Source: Patescibacteria group bacterium (GTDB lineage: Bacteria > Patescibacteriota > Saccharimonadia > Saccharimonadales > CAIOMD01). From it: a DNA stretch of 15,667 bases. The stretch is taken from positions 1-15,667 of the forward strand of contig JALOQO010000028.1 of the NCBI GenBank assembly GCA_025453305.1, written 5' to 3'. A model generated the notes under the pieces. That model was not told where the DNA came from. It saw nothing but the letters and a program-made list of their open reading frames with translations, and ran no database searches. Shown here in pieces: positions 7,607-11,582 of this stretch; the stretch's first letter is position 1, and every line of letters begins with the position of its first letter. The translations under genes were made by a program, and so were the position numbers.

Positions 7607-9136
7607 ATGGCTACACTAAAAGAACTAAGAGACGAACGATTAAGAAAACTGCAAGATCTTAAAAATCTGGGGGTAAATCCTTATCCCGCTAAAGCAAAAA
7701 GAACTCATAAAAATATTCAAATAGTAACCGATTTTGATAATCTACAAAATACCCCAGTAACTGTTGCGGGCAGGATTGTTTCTATAAGAAAATTCGGCAA
7801 GATTGCCTTTATAGTTATAAAAGACGATTCTGCAAAATTACAACTATTTTGGAAAAACGACGATTCCGACAACCCAGATTATGCAAAGGGCGAACTTAGT
7901 TTGAACGAAATCAAATTACTAGATCCCGGGGATTTTGTTGAATGTATGGGCAGTGTAATTAAAACTCAAACCGGAGAAATATCACTACAAGTTGATAAAT
8001 TTAGACTATTAACAAAGTCGCTTAGGGGAATGCCAAACGAACAAGAGGGCTTTACTAACAAAGAAGAACGAATGCGTAGGCGATATGTTGATATAAATGT
8101 TAACGATAATGTTAAAGAACGGTTCATTAGACGGAGTAAGTTTTGGCAGGCAACTAGACAATTCTTAGAACAAGAGGATTTTCTAGAGATAAATGTTCCT
8201 ATACTAGAAAATATAGCCGGCGGAGCCGATGCAACACCGTTTATTACTCATATGGATGCACTAGACCAAGATTTTTATTTGCGCATAAGCCACGAACTCC
8301 CCCTAAAAAGGCTGTTAGTTGCAGGTTACGAGAAAGTATTCGATATCGGTGCCAGGTTTAGAAACGAAAATTATTCAGAGGAACACTTGCCAGAGCATAT
8401 TGCAATGGAGTGGTATTGGGCCTATGCCGACTGGCAAGACGGCATGGAATTAACCGAAAGACAAATAAGGTATGTGGTAGATAAAACATGGGGAAAAAGA
8501 CAGTTCACATTAGCAAATGGCCAAGAAGTTGACTTTGGTCCAGATGGAGAACATTTTAGTAAAATTAGTTTTGTAAATGTATTAAATGATCAATACGGTA
8601 TTGATGTTTTTAATTCTAGCATAGAGCAGATTGCTCAAACACTGAAAGACCAGGGCTTAGAAGTAGAAAAACAAGATAATAGGCAGCGCAGCCTAGATAA
8701 ACTATGGAAAAAATATCGCAAAACCATTAGCGGCCCCGTATTTTTAGTCGATATTCCAACTTTTATGCAACCGTTAGCCAAAAAACAATCAACCAACCCC
8801 GATTTATCTGAACAATTTAATTTAGTTTTTGGCGGTAGCGAAATGTGCAAGGCTTTTTCGGAGCTAAACGATCCAATCGATCAGCTTGACAGATTCAAGG
8901 AACAACAAGCGCTAAGAGATGCGGGCGACGAAGAGGCCCAGATGTTGGACATCGATTTTGTAGAGGCCCTAGAATACGCCATGCCACCGGCTTGTGGATT
9001 TGGTTGGAGTGAAAGGGTTTTTTGGGCTCTAGAGGGTGTTACGGCCAGAGAAGGTGTTCCGTTTCCTCAATTAAAATACGAGATAGACGAAACCACAAAG
9101 AATACTTATCCTCAAATAGACTTTGAAATTATGTGA
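7607..9136 (+). CDS. lysS: Lysyl-tRNA synthetase (class II)
   Basis: Charges tRNA-Lys. At 509 residues it has the usual architecture: an N-terminal OB-fold anticodon domain (about 50-130, VTVAGRIVSIRKFGKIAF) and a class II catalytic domain with motif 2 at FRNE (251-254). The catalytic Glu of the HELPLKR segment is E230, and E268 and Y270 of the MEWY segment match the lysine-site residues of E. coli LysRS. Several other conserved positions differ: Pro at 232 where Tyr is usual, Lys at 415 where the lysine-contacting Asn is usual (E412 and E419 are kept), and a motif 3 (G464-F-G-W-S-E-R470) one residue shorter than GLGIGIDR. LysRS remains the best call because the FSELNDP segment and overall collinearity are clear. 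The likely transcript is leaderless, and crtI follows 7 bases after the TGA stop. Confidence 0.92.
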   Translation: MATLKELRDERLRKLQDLKNLGVNPYPAKAKRTHKNIQIVTDFDNLQNTPVTVAGRIVSIRKFGKIAFIVIKDDSAKLQLFWKNDDSDNPDYAKGELSLNEIKLLDPGDFVECMGSVIKTQTGEISLQVDKFRLLTKSLRGMPNEQEGFTNKEERMRRRYVDINVNDNVKERFIRRSKFWQATRQFLEQEDFLEINVPILENIAGGADATPFITHMDALDQDFYLRISHELPLKRLLVAGYEKVFDIGARFRNENYSEEHLPEHIAMEWYWAYADWQDGMELTERQIRYVVDKTWGKRQFTLANGQEVDFGPDGEHFSKISFVNVLNDQYGIDVFNSSIEQIAQTLKDQGLEVEKQDNRQRSLDKLWKKYRKTISGPVFLVDIPTFMQPLAKKQSTNPDLSEQFNLVFGGSEMCKAFSELNDPIDQLDRFKEQQALRDAGDEEAQMLDIDFVEALEYAMPPACGFGWSERVFWALEGVTAREGVPFPQLKYEIDETTKNTYPQIDFEIM

Positions 9137-9143
9137 TTTCGTT

Positions 9144-10586
9144 ATGGCGATAAATCAAAACAAAAAACAGCTTATTGTGGTGGTCGGTGCTGGAGTAGCT
9201 GGGCTTGCAGTGGCATTATTAGCAAAACACAAAGGCTATGATGTAAGTGTTTATGAAAGTACTCCTACCTATGGAGGTAAAATGGGAATATTAAAATTAG
9301 GCGGAGCAGTTTTTGATACTGGCCCAAGTTTAGCTACAGATGTTAAAGTTATTGATAAGCTTTATACAGATTGCGGCTTAAACCCCCGTGAATATTGGAA
9401 CTATGTTAAATTACCAGAAATTACTAGGTACTTCTGGCAAGACGATAAACATTACATAATGCCAGCGGGAATAGCTAATATAGAGAAATCTCTAGCTCAC
9501 ACTTTTGATACCGACCCGGTGCTACTACATAACTATTTGTATAAGCTTAAAAAAAGTTATTCAAAAAGCATTTCGTATTTTGTAGATAAGCCTGTTAGTA
9601 TAAGATCTTTTTCCAGCCTTAATGCTCTGGTGTCTTTTGGTCTAATTGCACCACTTATGATTCAGGATTTACATCGGCGAAACAACAGATATTTAAGAGA
9701 TAAGAAATTAGTTCAGTTATTTGACAGGTACGCTACCTATAGCGGTAGCAATCCTTATTTAACGCCTGCCTTGAGTATTTTGGCTAGTGGTCCAGAAGTT
9801 ATTGGCGGTGCATACTATCCCGTAGGCGGTATGAGATCCATTGCAGACGGTCTTTACCAAGCCGGCAATGATTTGGGGGTAAAATTTAATTTTAATAAAC
9901 CGGTCAAATCTATTGTGCAAGTTTCGAGCAGAGTAGAGGCGGTTGTTACTAAAAAGGGTGTTATTAAAACAAATAAAGTTATTTATGATGGCGATGCTAG
10001 GATGCTGTCGGTAATGCTCAAGAAAAAACCAAAACCCGCCAAGCCAAGCTCAATGTCAACTTCTGCTTTTGCATTTTATTGGGTGGTTAAGGGCGACTTT
10101 AAGCAGTTTGGTTTGCATAATATTTTATTCAGTGACGATTATCAAAAAGAATACCAGCAATTATCGGCTGGTATGATATCCCAAGATCCTACAGTTTTTA
10201 TTAATATCACAAGTAAACTAGAGCCCGGGCTAACGGCGACCGGCACAGAGAACTGGTTCGTGATGGTTAATGTTCCTGCTGGTGTGGGCGAGCATCTACT
10301 AGATAAAGTCAGGCAATCGGTATTACAAAAGGTGTTTAATGTTACGGGTAAAAAACCCATTATTATAGCCGAAGATTATTTAAGCCCCAAAAAACTAGAA
10401 CAAAATACCGGAGCATACAGTGGTGCAATTTATGGTCAGTCGGCAAATAACTTGTTTTTGACCATAAAAAAGCCTTCTAACAAAACAAATATTAAGGGCT
10501 TATATAGGGTAGGCGGCACTTCACACCCCGGTGGGGGCGTGCCTTTGGCTGTTCGTTCCGCTACAATAGTTAGTAAATGGCTATAA
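9144..10586 (+). CDS. Carotenoid desaturase, CrtI/CrtD/CrtN family
   Basis: An FAD-dependent membrane-associated oxidoreductase that introduces or shifts double bonds in acyclic carotenoids. The 480-residue product starts with the dinucleotide-binding fold VVVGAGVAGL (12-21), with acidic residue E38 ending the second strand, then GGKMGILKLGG and FDTGPSLAT, typical of CrtI-type enzymes. The C-terminal flavin motif is VGGTSHPGGGVPLAVRSA. I chose the ATG at 9144 rather than a TTG at 9123 that lies inside lysS. Phytoene desaturase, 4,4'-diapophytoene desaturase and 3,4-desaturase (CrtD) cannot be told apart by eye. The CruF-like gene overlapping its end by 10 bases favours a role on acyclic, hydroxylated carotenoids (inference). 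Its AT-rich codon style looks like its neighbours, so any transfer is not recent. No crtB, crtE or cyclase gene is in the window. Confidence 0.88.
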   Translation: MAINQNKKQLIVVVGAGVAGLAVALLAKHKGYDVSVYESTPTYGGKMGILKLGGAVFDTGPSLATDVKVIDKLYTDCGLNPREYWNYVKLPEITRYFWQDDKHYIMPAGIANIEKSLAHTFDTDPVLLHNYLYKLKKSYSKSISYFVDKPVSIRSFSSLNALVSFGLIAPLMIQDLHRRNNRYLRDKKLVQLFDRYATYSGSNPYLTPALSILASGPEVIGGAYYPVGGMRSIADGLYQAGNDLGVKFNFNKPVKSIVQVSSRVEAVVTKKGVIKTNKVIYDGDARMLSVMLKKKPKPAKPSSMSTSAFAFYWVVKGDFKQFGLHNILFSDDYQKEYQQLSAGMISQDPTVFINITSKLEPGLTATGTENWFVMVNVPAGVGEHLLDKVRQSVLQKVFNVTGKKPIIIAEDYLSPKKLEQNTGAYSGAIYGQSANNLFLTIKKPSNKTNIKGLYRVGGTSHPGGGVPLAVRSATIVSKWL

Positions 10587-11248
10587 AAAAGCATATTCAT
10601 GAATCTTGGCACAATAACAGGCAACTTATGGTTGTTTTTATTGTGGCATTTTTTTTATTGGCTGGGGTGGTGCAATATGCTGTTGGCTTAACTTATGTAA
10701 TCAAATTAACATCTTTGGTTATTGCTATTATGACTGCTTTGGCTGTGATTTTTTGGGATGTTAATTACGGGCGCAGGTTGTTATTAAGCCTTATAGCTAT
10801 AATAACCGGAATAGTAGTTGAGCTAATCGGGGTTAATACTGGCCTACTTTTTGGCGATTACCAGTACGGTACAATAATGGGTTATAAAATTGCTGGTGTA
10901 CCACTTCTTATCGGTGCTACTTGGTTATTGGTAACAGTTTCTGCTTGGCAAATAGTTAGTTTTAGTAGCTTAAAATCCTATCAAAAAATATTAATTGCCA
11001 GCGGTTTGGTTGTTATGTTTGATTTATTACTAGAGCAGTTTGCAACGGCATTTGGATTGTGGGTTTGGGATAACGGAGTCATACCGCTGTTAAATTATGC
11101 GAGCTGGTTTTTTGTTAGTGTATTTTTACTTACGATTTATGCAAAATACTCTAAACAGGGTAATCCCGGCATATTCGGAAGCTTATTTGGAGCCTTTGCA
11201 TTACCTTTAATGGCCATATTTTTTTGGCTTATGCTTTTAATAAGTTAA
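10577..11248 (+). CDS. CruF-like carotenoid 1,2-hydratase family membrane protein
   Basis: A 223-residue polytopic protein with about seven hydrophobic segments. It carries the hallmarks of the carotenoid biosynthesis family PF04240, which includes gamma-carotene 1',2'-hydratase CruF and the haloarchaeal bisanhydrobacterioruberin hydratase. These are E82-x-x-G85-x-x-T88-G89 followed by FGDYQYG (92-98), GVP (107-109) with W116, then D149...E153 and the W162-x-W164...P170-x-x-NY...W177 block. Known members add water to the terminal psi-end double bond of acyclic carotenoids, giving tertiary alcohols. It overlaps the desaturase gene by 10 bases, so the two are surely co-expressed, probably from the lysS promoter. 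Family assignment is confident; the exact substrate is not known. Confidence 0.87.
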   Translation: MAIKKHIHESWHNNRQLMVVFIVAFFLLAGVVQYAVGLTYVIKLTSLVIAIMTALAVIFWDVNYGRRLLLSLIAIITGIVVELIGVNTGLLFGDYQYGTIMGYKIAGVPLLIGATWLLVTVSAWQIVSFSSLKSYQKILIASGLVVMFDLLLEQFATAFGLWVWDNGVIPLLNYASWFFVSVFLLTIYAKYSKQGNPGIFGSLFGAFALPLMAIFFWLMLLIS

Positions 11249-11345: not shown

Positions 11346-11531
11346 ATGAAAAAGACAATCAAGAATAATGTTAAAAACCGCTACTTACAATGGAATGAAG
11401 ACATGCGAATTTTACAAAGAATGGTAACTAAAAAAAGTGTGTATGCTAAAGCCAGGGTAAATAGTGTCGATTATCAAAGGCGGCCAAAACACTCTAAACG
11501 GTACTTTTACCAGTACGAACAGTATTGCTAG
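11346..11531 (+). CDS. Small, very basic, Tyr-rich protein of unknown function
   Basis: A 61-residue product with 9 Lys and 7 Arg against 4 acidic residues (net about +12), plus 7 Tyr, most of them toward the C-terminus, which ends YFYQYEQYC. There is no membrane segment or signal peptide. I do not recognise the family. Charge and size suggest binding to nucleic acid or the ribosome (inference). Coding is supported by context: a two-box promoter with extended -10, the best Shine-Dalgarno in the window at ideal spacing, and a hairpin terminator 22 bases after the stop, making a single-gene transcript likely to be highly expressed. A single Cys is the last residue. Confidence 0.72.
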   Translation: MKKTIKNNVKNRYLQWNEDMRILQRMVTKKSVYAKARVNSVDYQRRPKHSKRYFYQYEQYC

Positions 11532-11552: not shown

Positions 11553-11582
11553 AAAATCACCCCTGTTAGTTGGGGTGATTTT
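11553..11582 (+). terminator. Rho-independent terminator
   Basis: A perfect 11-bp inverted repeat: AAAATCACCCC (11553-11563) and GGGGTGATTTT (11572-11582) around an 8-base loop. The right arm ends in TTTT, and the A-run on the left makes it potentially bidirectional. It closes the single-gene unit of the 61-residue protein and may also end lysS-crtI-cruF readthrough. Confidence 0.85.

Follow-up and report, generated by a model that had tools for sequence, protein, structure and literature searches.

A crtD-cruF gene pair behind lysS in a Saccharibacterium and its place in a predicted Bacteroidota-type carotenoid pathway

Saccharibacteria have very reduced genomes and are held to be episymbionts, and they are commonly considered to be without biosynthesis beyond the essentials. 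The window analysed here (15,667 nucleotides, the entire contig C19 of draft genome G000, which has 659,616 bases in 97 contigs and is 69.6% complete and 0.79% contaminated) carries two carotenoid-type genes directly behind lysS, which raises the question of whether such a cell makes a pigment of its own, and which one. The pair is read here as catalysing the two final reactions of a carotenoid pathway that is complete in this genome, with product, transfer and role as proposed below, and I consider this reading probable. An earlier note on this DNA had started from the view that CPR cells lack such pathways. That view is outdated: a 2023 study from Lake Baikal reported Patescibacteria with genes for bacterioruberin, and its available text describes lyeJ, crtD and cruF, in one case in a Saccharibacterium (PMC9948471).

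The lysine--tRNA ligase gene lysS occupies 7607..9136 on the + strand (NF001756, 480.9 bits, cut-off 468). It is followed on the same strand by crtD (9144..10586), encoding a predicted FAD-dependent 1-hydroxycarotenoid 3,4-desaturase of 480 aa, whose ATG at 9144 lies 7 bases past the lysS end at 9136 and whose stop codon is at 10584-10586. The ATG of cruF (10577..11248, +), encoding a predicted carotenoid 1,2-hydratase that is a membrane protein of 223 aa, is at 10577 and its stop ends at 11248, and the crtD stop and cruF start overlap by 10 bases (10577..10586, +). The earlier note had given exactly this geometry, and recomputing the coordinates from the sequence reproduced it. The overlap suggests translational coupling, and from this overlap and the position behind lysS the two genes are probably co-transcribed. 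Downstream of cruF, a small basic ORF of 61 aa (11346-11531) precedes a terminator-like hairpin (11561-11575). Further upstream in the window, a metallophosphatase (226-1407) had a weak dockerin-like N-terminal match (E 0.043, below cut-off), and a membrane-like 110-aa ORF (2028-2360) lies between frr and uppS, a place where it was not seen in the related genomes G003 and G005; the ORF itself had no Pfam match over cut-off, and its relative P0242 matches DUF2878 (PF11086). A scan against Rfam gave no match, while scans for promoters and terminator-like elements found 13 (16.2 expected) and 9 (3.6 expected), respectively.

The CrtD assignment draws on profile models, PDB entry 4rep, a tree and conserved residues. 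The best NCBIfam model for the window protein was the CrtD model NF042421 (344 bits, E 8e-103), followed by proteobacterial CrtD (241 bits) and general CrtI (223 bits), and its closest PDB relative by sequence was 4rep, 'Gamma-carotene desaturase' (E 1.5e-85). The score lies below the curated NF042421 cut-off of 500 bits, which three of three Bacteroidota CrtD used for calibration exceeded (595-800 bits), and the protein is hence placed as a sister clade and not as an equivalog. Named Bacteroidota CrtD relatives are 36-39% identical to it. A midpoint-rooted tree was built from 71 chosen rows (29 from the best 120 of 4072 matches, plus loci), in which one clade (100/100) unites the window CrtD with the fragment from G005 and 19 metagenome proteins. 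This clade groups with 21 Bacteroidota-side CrtD rows (99/98), and the CrtI rows are separate from both; the CrtI proteins of G000, G003, G005, G181 and G083 stand beside five Bacteroidota CrtI (10 rows, 100/97). Rows called Bacteroidota-side include an Ignavibacteriota record (L103), a record titled Kuenenia (L081) and metagenome proteins. Of the 80 positions at which 17 Bacteroidota-side CrtD are invariant, the window CrtD matches 65; of the 25 that are CrtD-specific (mostly missing from CrtI) it has 20, compared with 0 in the CrtI of G000. The protein is a sister of the Bacteroidota 1-hydroxycarotenoid 3,4-desaturases, the activity itself being a prediction.

The window CruF matched PF04240 (Caroten_synth) with 82.2 bits (gathering cut-off 25, E 6e-23). 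It stayed under the curated NCBIfam cut-off (TIGR03460, 65.5 vs 154.7 bits), as three Bacteroidota CruF likewise did (55-69 bits). At each of the 20 positions where 17 Bacteroidota-side CruF are invariant, the window protein has the same residue. In a midpoint-rooted tree of 66 chosen rows (35 from the best 120 of 127 matches, plus loci), it belongs to a 29-row clade of short CruF (93/84), joined by 26 Bacteroidota-side rows (together 95/83). Long branches have an unsure placement in the CrtD and CruF trees (Deinococcus, Sulfitobacter, Priestia and the G083 CruF). Among the closest CruF matches listed, P0139 is the sole entry with a taxon name ('Patescibacteria group bacterium'), and matching contig sizes (167,787, 75,370 and 107,599 bases) suggest that CrtD and CruF relatives share metagenome contigs. 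An AlphaFold2 model of CruF (28 sequences) was mainly helical with a mean pLDDT of 89.1; a Foldseek search of it against the PDB returned no match at E <= 0.001, the top entry being the mycobacterial Insig homologue MvINS (E 0.2, not significant), and the CruF profile had no match among PDB sequences. A single-sequence CruF scan of genome contigs produced 91 stretches and 0 relatives. The window CruF is a PF04240 member that groups with Bacteroidota-type short CruF, and hydratase activity is predicted for it. The earlier description of a CrtI/CrtD-type desaturase next to a CruF-like protein is therefore upheld, both by the family and subfamily models, with the NF042421 score below its cut-off, and by phylogenies that group both with carotenoid enzymes.

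Crucially for ownership of the pair, the arrangement recurs in relatives. G005, from the same family and another genus, shares the order frr-uppS-rseP-CPBP-proS-greA-ORF-lysS-crtD with the window; its crtD lies 11 bases past lysS, is 51% identical to that of the window and is cut by the end of the contig, so a downstream cruF could not appear there. In G003, a third genus of the family that is named as a Saccharibacterium, cruF (37% identity) is found 12 bases past lysS with no crtD between, and no CrtD-like match above 116 bits was found in this genome. Its crtI, crtB and crtE are on a separate contig from cruF; this crtE consists of two overlapping frames (L054, 2604-3712), perhaps due to a frameshift. 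Close CrtD relatives were sought in 49 of 392 genomes drawn from the order, namely those matching PF04240 or PF00494, a set that excluded G001, G002 and G004, and were seen only in G000 (1078 bits) and G005 (309 bits), the next match scoring 175 bits at 30% identity. Within the family, PF04240 occurs in two of six genomes, and G001, G002 and G004 have neither PF04240 nor PF00494. Hence crtD and/or cruF sits behind lysS in three related genera within a conserved gene order, which is the lysS-crt arrangement that the earlier note had suggested looking for, and its attribution of the DNA to a Saccharibacterium agrees with the synteny shared with G003. Together with the profile scores, this synteny excludes a chance resemblance.

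It also bears on whether the pair comes from a bacteroidete through a chimeric contig or faulty binning. Named CruF relatives among the 80 retained of 113 are nearly all Bacteroidota, G003 aside, and the tetranucleotide distance of the pair segment (0.248) lies towards the top of the values for 20 non-overlapping 2.1-kb window pieces (0.167-0.253, two of them higher). However, the overall G+C of the pair resembles that of its neighbours, as does G+C at the third position (0.335 and 0.312 in the pair vs 0.299-0.346 in seven neighbours), and the gene order shared with G003 and G005 refutes mis-binning, which was rejected as barely conceivable.

The named loci with a related CruF (79, being the 80 retained of 113 relatives minus L074, which is G003) are almost all from Bacteroidota, in which crtD-cruF is a common pair. 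In 29 of these 79 loci, crtD immediately precedes cruF in the same orientation, with gaps from -70 to 138; crtD occurs anywhere in 40, crtYcd in 33, and at least one of crtD, crtYcd, crtI and crtB in 67.

A second contig of G000 (C89, L007) carries on its - strand dnaG and rpoD (both named by eye), a kinase-like gene, and then crtE (PF00348, 173 bits, cut-off 27), crtI (TIGR02734, 433 bits, cut-off 238), crtB (PF00494, 177 bits, cut-off 26) and crtYcd (TIGR03462, 97 bits, cut-off 39.4, two repeats), which is truncated at 207 aa where the contig stops. The first three crt genes are open frames in an operon-like order, crtYcd stays open as far as the contig extends, and with cruF and crtD all six genes are present in one draft. 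G005 has crtE-crtI-crtB-crtYcd in the same order, its crtE being cut by a contig end. CrtB and CrtE of G000 scored under every NCBIfam equivalog cut-off, and their assignment relies on the Pfam families they match and on the order of the genes. For CrtB, the HpnD model (118 bits) outscored the CrtB models (89 bits), a preference also displayed by three Bacteroidota CrtB from carotenoid loci (98-105 bits vs 73-98 for the best CrtB model). Of 26 CrtYcd columns that are near-invariant in 33 CrtYcd of named loci, G000 retains 22 and G005 23. A further contig of G000 (C96, L009) holds a partial FAD oxidoreductase (2-796) nearest to HpnE and phytoene-desaturase models, a weak third TIGR02734 match of this genome (34 bits, below cut-off), and a gene at 1430-2104 that by eye has the look of a Crp-type regulator.

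The earlier note had spoken of a pigment module formed by the pair; given the genes on the second contig, this module is not an isolated one, and G000 seems to have every gene needed to convert prenyl diphosphates into a monocyclic, hydroxylated carotenoid. The two enzymes could instead modify carotenoids acquired from the host cell, the upstream genes being relics or serving another end. Such dependence would suit cells considered to be episymbionts, HMG-CoA reductase was absent in 16 of 16 genomes (the control matched in 5 of 14), and rhodopsins of Saccharibacteria bind externally supplied retinal in assays, while in the genomes that encode them Jaffe and co-workers, in the available text, found no retinal synthesis (PMC9296517). 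Against this, crtE, crtI and crtB of G000 are intact frames in an operon-like cluster, with crtYcd open to the contig end, and the identical gene order is found in G005, and I regard scavenging from the host as unlikely; with the upstream genes found in G000, the pair as isolated scavenging enzymes was rejected or ranked low. Absences carry little weight throughout, since the drafts are incomplete (G000 69.6%, G005 74%).

In the proposed pathway, CrtE would form GGPP, CrtB phytoene and CrtI lycopene, one end of which CrtYcd would close to a beta ring. At the end left open, CruF would then hydrate C-1',2' and thereby also block formation of a second ring, and CrtD would desaturate at C-3',4' adjoining the new hydroxyl, with 1'-hydroxytorulene or a close derivative as the predicted final product. 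The same functions from GGPP to 1'-hydroxytorulene are described for Nonlabens spongiae, for which crtD is also listed directly before cruF (PMC11855829). According to the available text of that study, its crtY, cruF and crtD together gave mainly 1'-hydroxytorulene in lycopene-making E. coli, crtY and cruF mainly 1'-hydroxy-gamma-carotene, and crtY alone mainly beta-carotene (PMC11855829).

This last result would favour beta-carotene as the main product in G000, perhaps for retinal and a rhodopsin, with CruF and CrtD on a side branch only. But adding cruF shifted the main product to 1'-hydroxy-gamma-carotene, and G000 has no rhodopsin. Across the 392 genomes, a rhodopsin was found over cut-off in nine (15 at E <= 0.001) and PF00494, a family including squalene synthases, in 44; none of the nine is among the 44, where ~1 would be expected by chance, so that the lack of overlap is suggestive only. 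A search for Blh gave 0 of 24 genomes, with the control also silent. From the rhodopsin counts, a link to rhodopsin and retinal was rejected or ranked low, and beta-carotene as the main product is improbable. Two genomes of the window's own family, G001 and G002, are among the rhodopsin-bearing genomes without PF00494. PF04240 was detected in 12 of the 392 genomes; five (G016, G018, G037, G046 and G220) have a PF04240 protein and no PF00494 phytoene synthase match. A second CruF-like protein of ~272 aa is encoded in G036 (L060, 6914-7735) with a counterpart in G220 (L067, 69-887), and the L060 protein is nearest to the gamma-carotene 1'-hydroxylase model (71.7 bits vs a cut-off of 400).

The 1'-hydroxytorulene route proposed for G000 differs from its precedents in several respects. 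Unlike in N. spongiae, the G000 genes are divided between two loci of housekeeping genes, and the cyclase is of the CrtYcd type, whereas the tested flavobacterial cyclase is compared in the available text with Pantoea CrtY (26%) and CrtYm (PMC11855829) and may be of another type. CrtZ (PF04116), the ring hydroxylase of the branch leading to myxol and flexixanthin, was found in 0 of 15 genomes (the control matched in 2 of 14), so that, as far as a draft of 70% can tell, the ring should carry no hydroxyl. In the Deinococcus deinoxanthin pathway, CrtD carries out the 3',4'-desaturation. The CruF-type 1',2'-hydration of gamma-carotene in that pathway (PMC11855829, as described there) is common with the proposal for G000, while one Deinococcus CruF and two FAD enzymes are far from the window proteins in the trees, on long branches of unsure place. 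For Algoriphagus, a pathway that combines crtYcd, cruF and crtD has been predicted; the parts of the report available list the same six core genes as in G000, including CrtYcd and a 221-aa CruF, and add crtW and crtZ, all with predicted functions (PMC10784355). Among the top-ranked papers listed in the literature searched (titles and starts of abstracts, with few subscription papers or preprints), no cyclase-bearing or Bacteroidota-type carotenoid pathway was found for Saccharibacteria.

The earlier note had favoured an acyclic hydroxylated carotenoid, and the pair could serve an acyclic C50 bacterioruberin pathway as in haloarchaea or the Lake Baikal Patescibacteria. The latter are of the same phylum and, as described in the text available, similarly combine a desaturase with a CruF hydratase, but together with a lycopene elongase (PMC9948471). 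CruF and CrtD both serve bacterioruberin synthesis, and the top NCBIfam CruF model for the window protein was the bacterioruberin one, as it was for the three Bacteroidota CruF. A UbiA prenyltransferase lies beside cruF in G036, G074, G091 and G014, adjoining a CrtI as well in the first three, and G036 exceeds the cut-off of the CrtID model (660 vs 640 bits), so the gene sets of G036, G074 and G091 look like bacterioruberin synthesis. G003, although a member of the family of G000, likewise has a strong UbiA match (182 bits), located away from its cruF. Several findings argue against this product in G000, however. The best UbiA-family lycopene elongase match of G000 reached 21.8 bits, short of the 34.2-bit cut-off, and G005 had no match, both drafts being incomplete, while CrtYcd is present in both. 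By its PDB relative and its tree, the window CrtD sides with gamma-carotene-type desaturases, and the CruF tree puts the window protein with the Bacteroidota type and at a great distance from the UbiA-linked CruF of other Saccharibacteria (G014, G036 and G091). Bacterioruberin as the product of G000 was accordingly rejected or ranked low, and I would be surprised to see it. The acyclic route has a matching gene set in other Saccharibacteria and is less likely in G000. With a CrtYcd-type cyclase in G000 and no UbiA match over cut-off, the Bacteroidota monocyclic route is the most likely one.

As for its origin, crtD-cruF shares ancestry with the Bacteroidota pair, and I infer a horizontal gain, most likely before the genera of the family diverged; base composition hardly betrays a transfer, and its direction is read from the sister grouping only. 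Judged from sequence, this is a real, intact and Bacteroidota-related pigment gene set in Saccharibacteria with a predicted product. Confidence in the pathway is tempered by CrtB and CrtE scoring under equivalog cut-offs, by the strong UbiA match of G003, and by a tested cyclase that may not be of the CrtYcd type. The wider picture, in which a family of Saccharibacteria makes its own 1'-hydroxytorulene by a Bacteroidota-type route gained separately from the bacterioruberin-like one, while another genus of that family carries a rhodopsin instead, is put forward tentatively, at slightly less than an even chance.

The pigment would likely act as an antioxidant and stiffen the membrane. If this is true, a membrane pigment would be worth its cost even to such a cell, given a six-gene route with parts in three genera of one family, and the pathway raises the question of where the isoprenoid precursors come from. 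A carotenoid would be a marker that can be searched for directly in enrichments by absorption, Raman or LC-MS. If true, carotenoid and rhodopsin would be two different solutions by which very small cells live with light.
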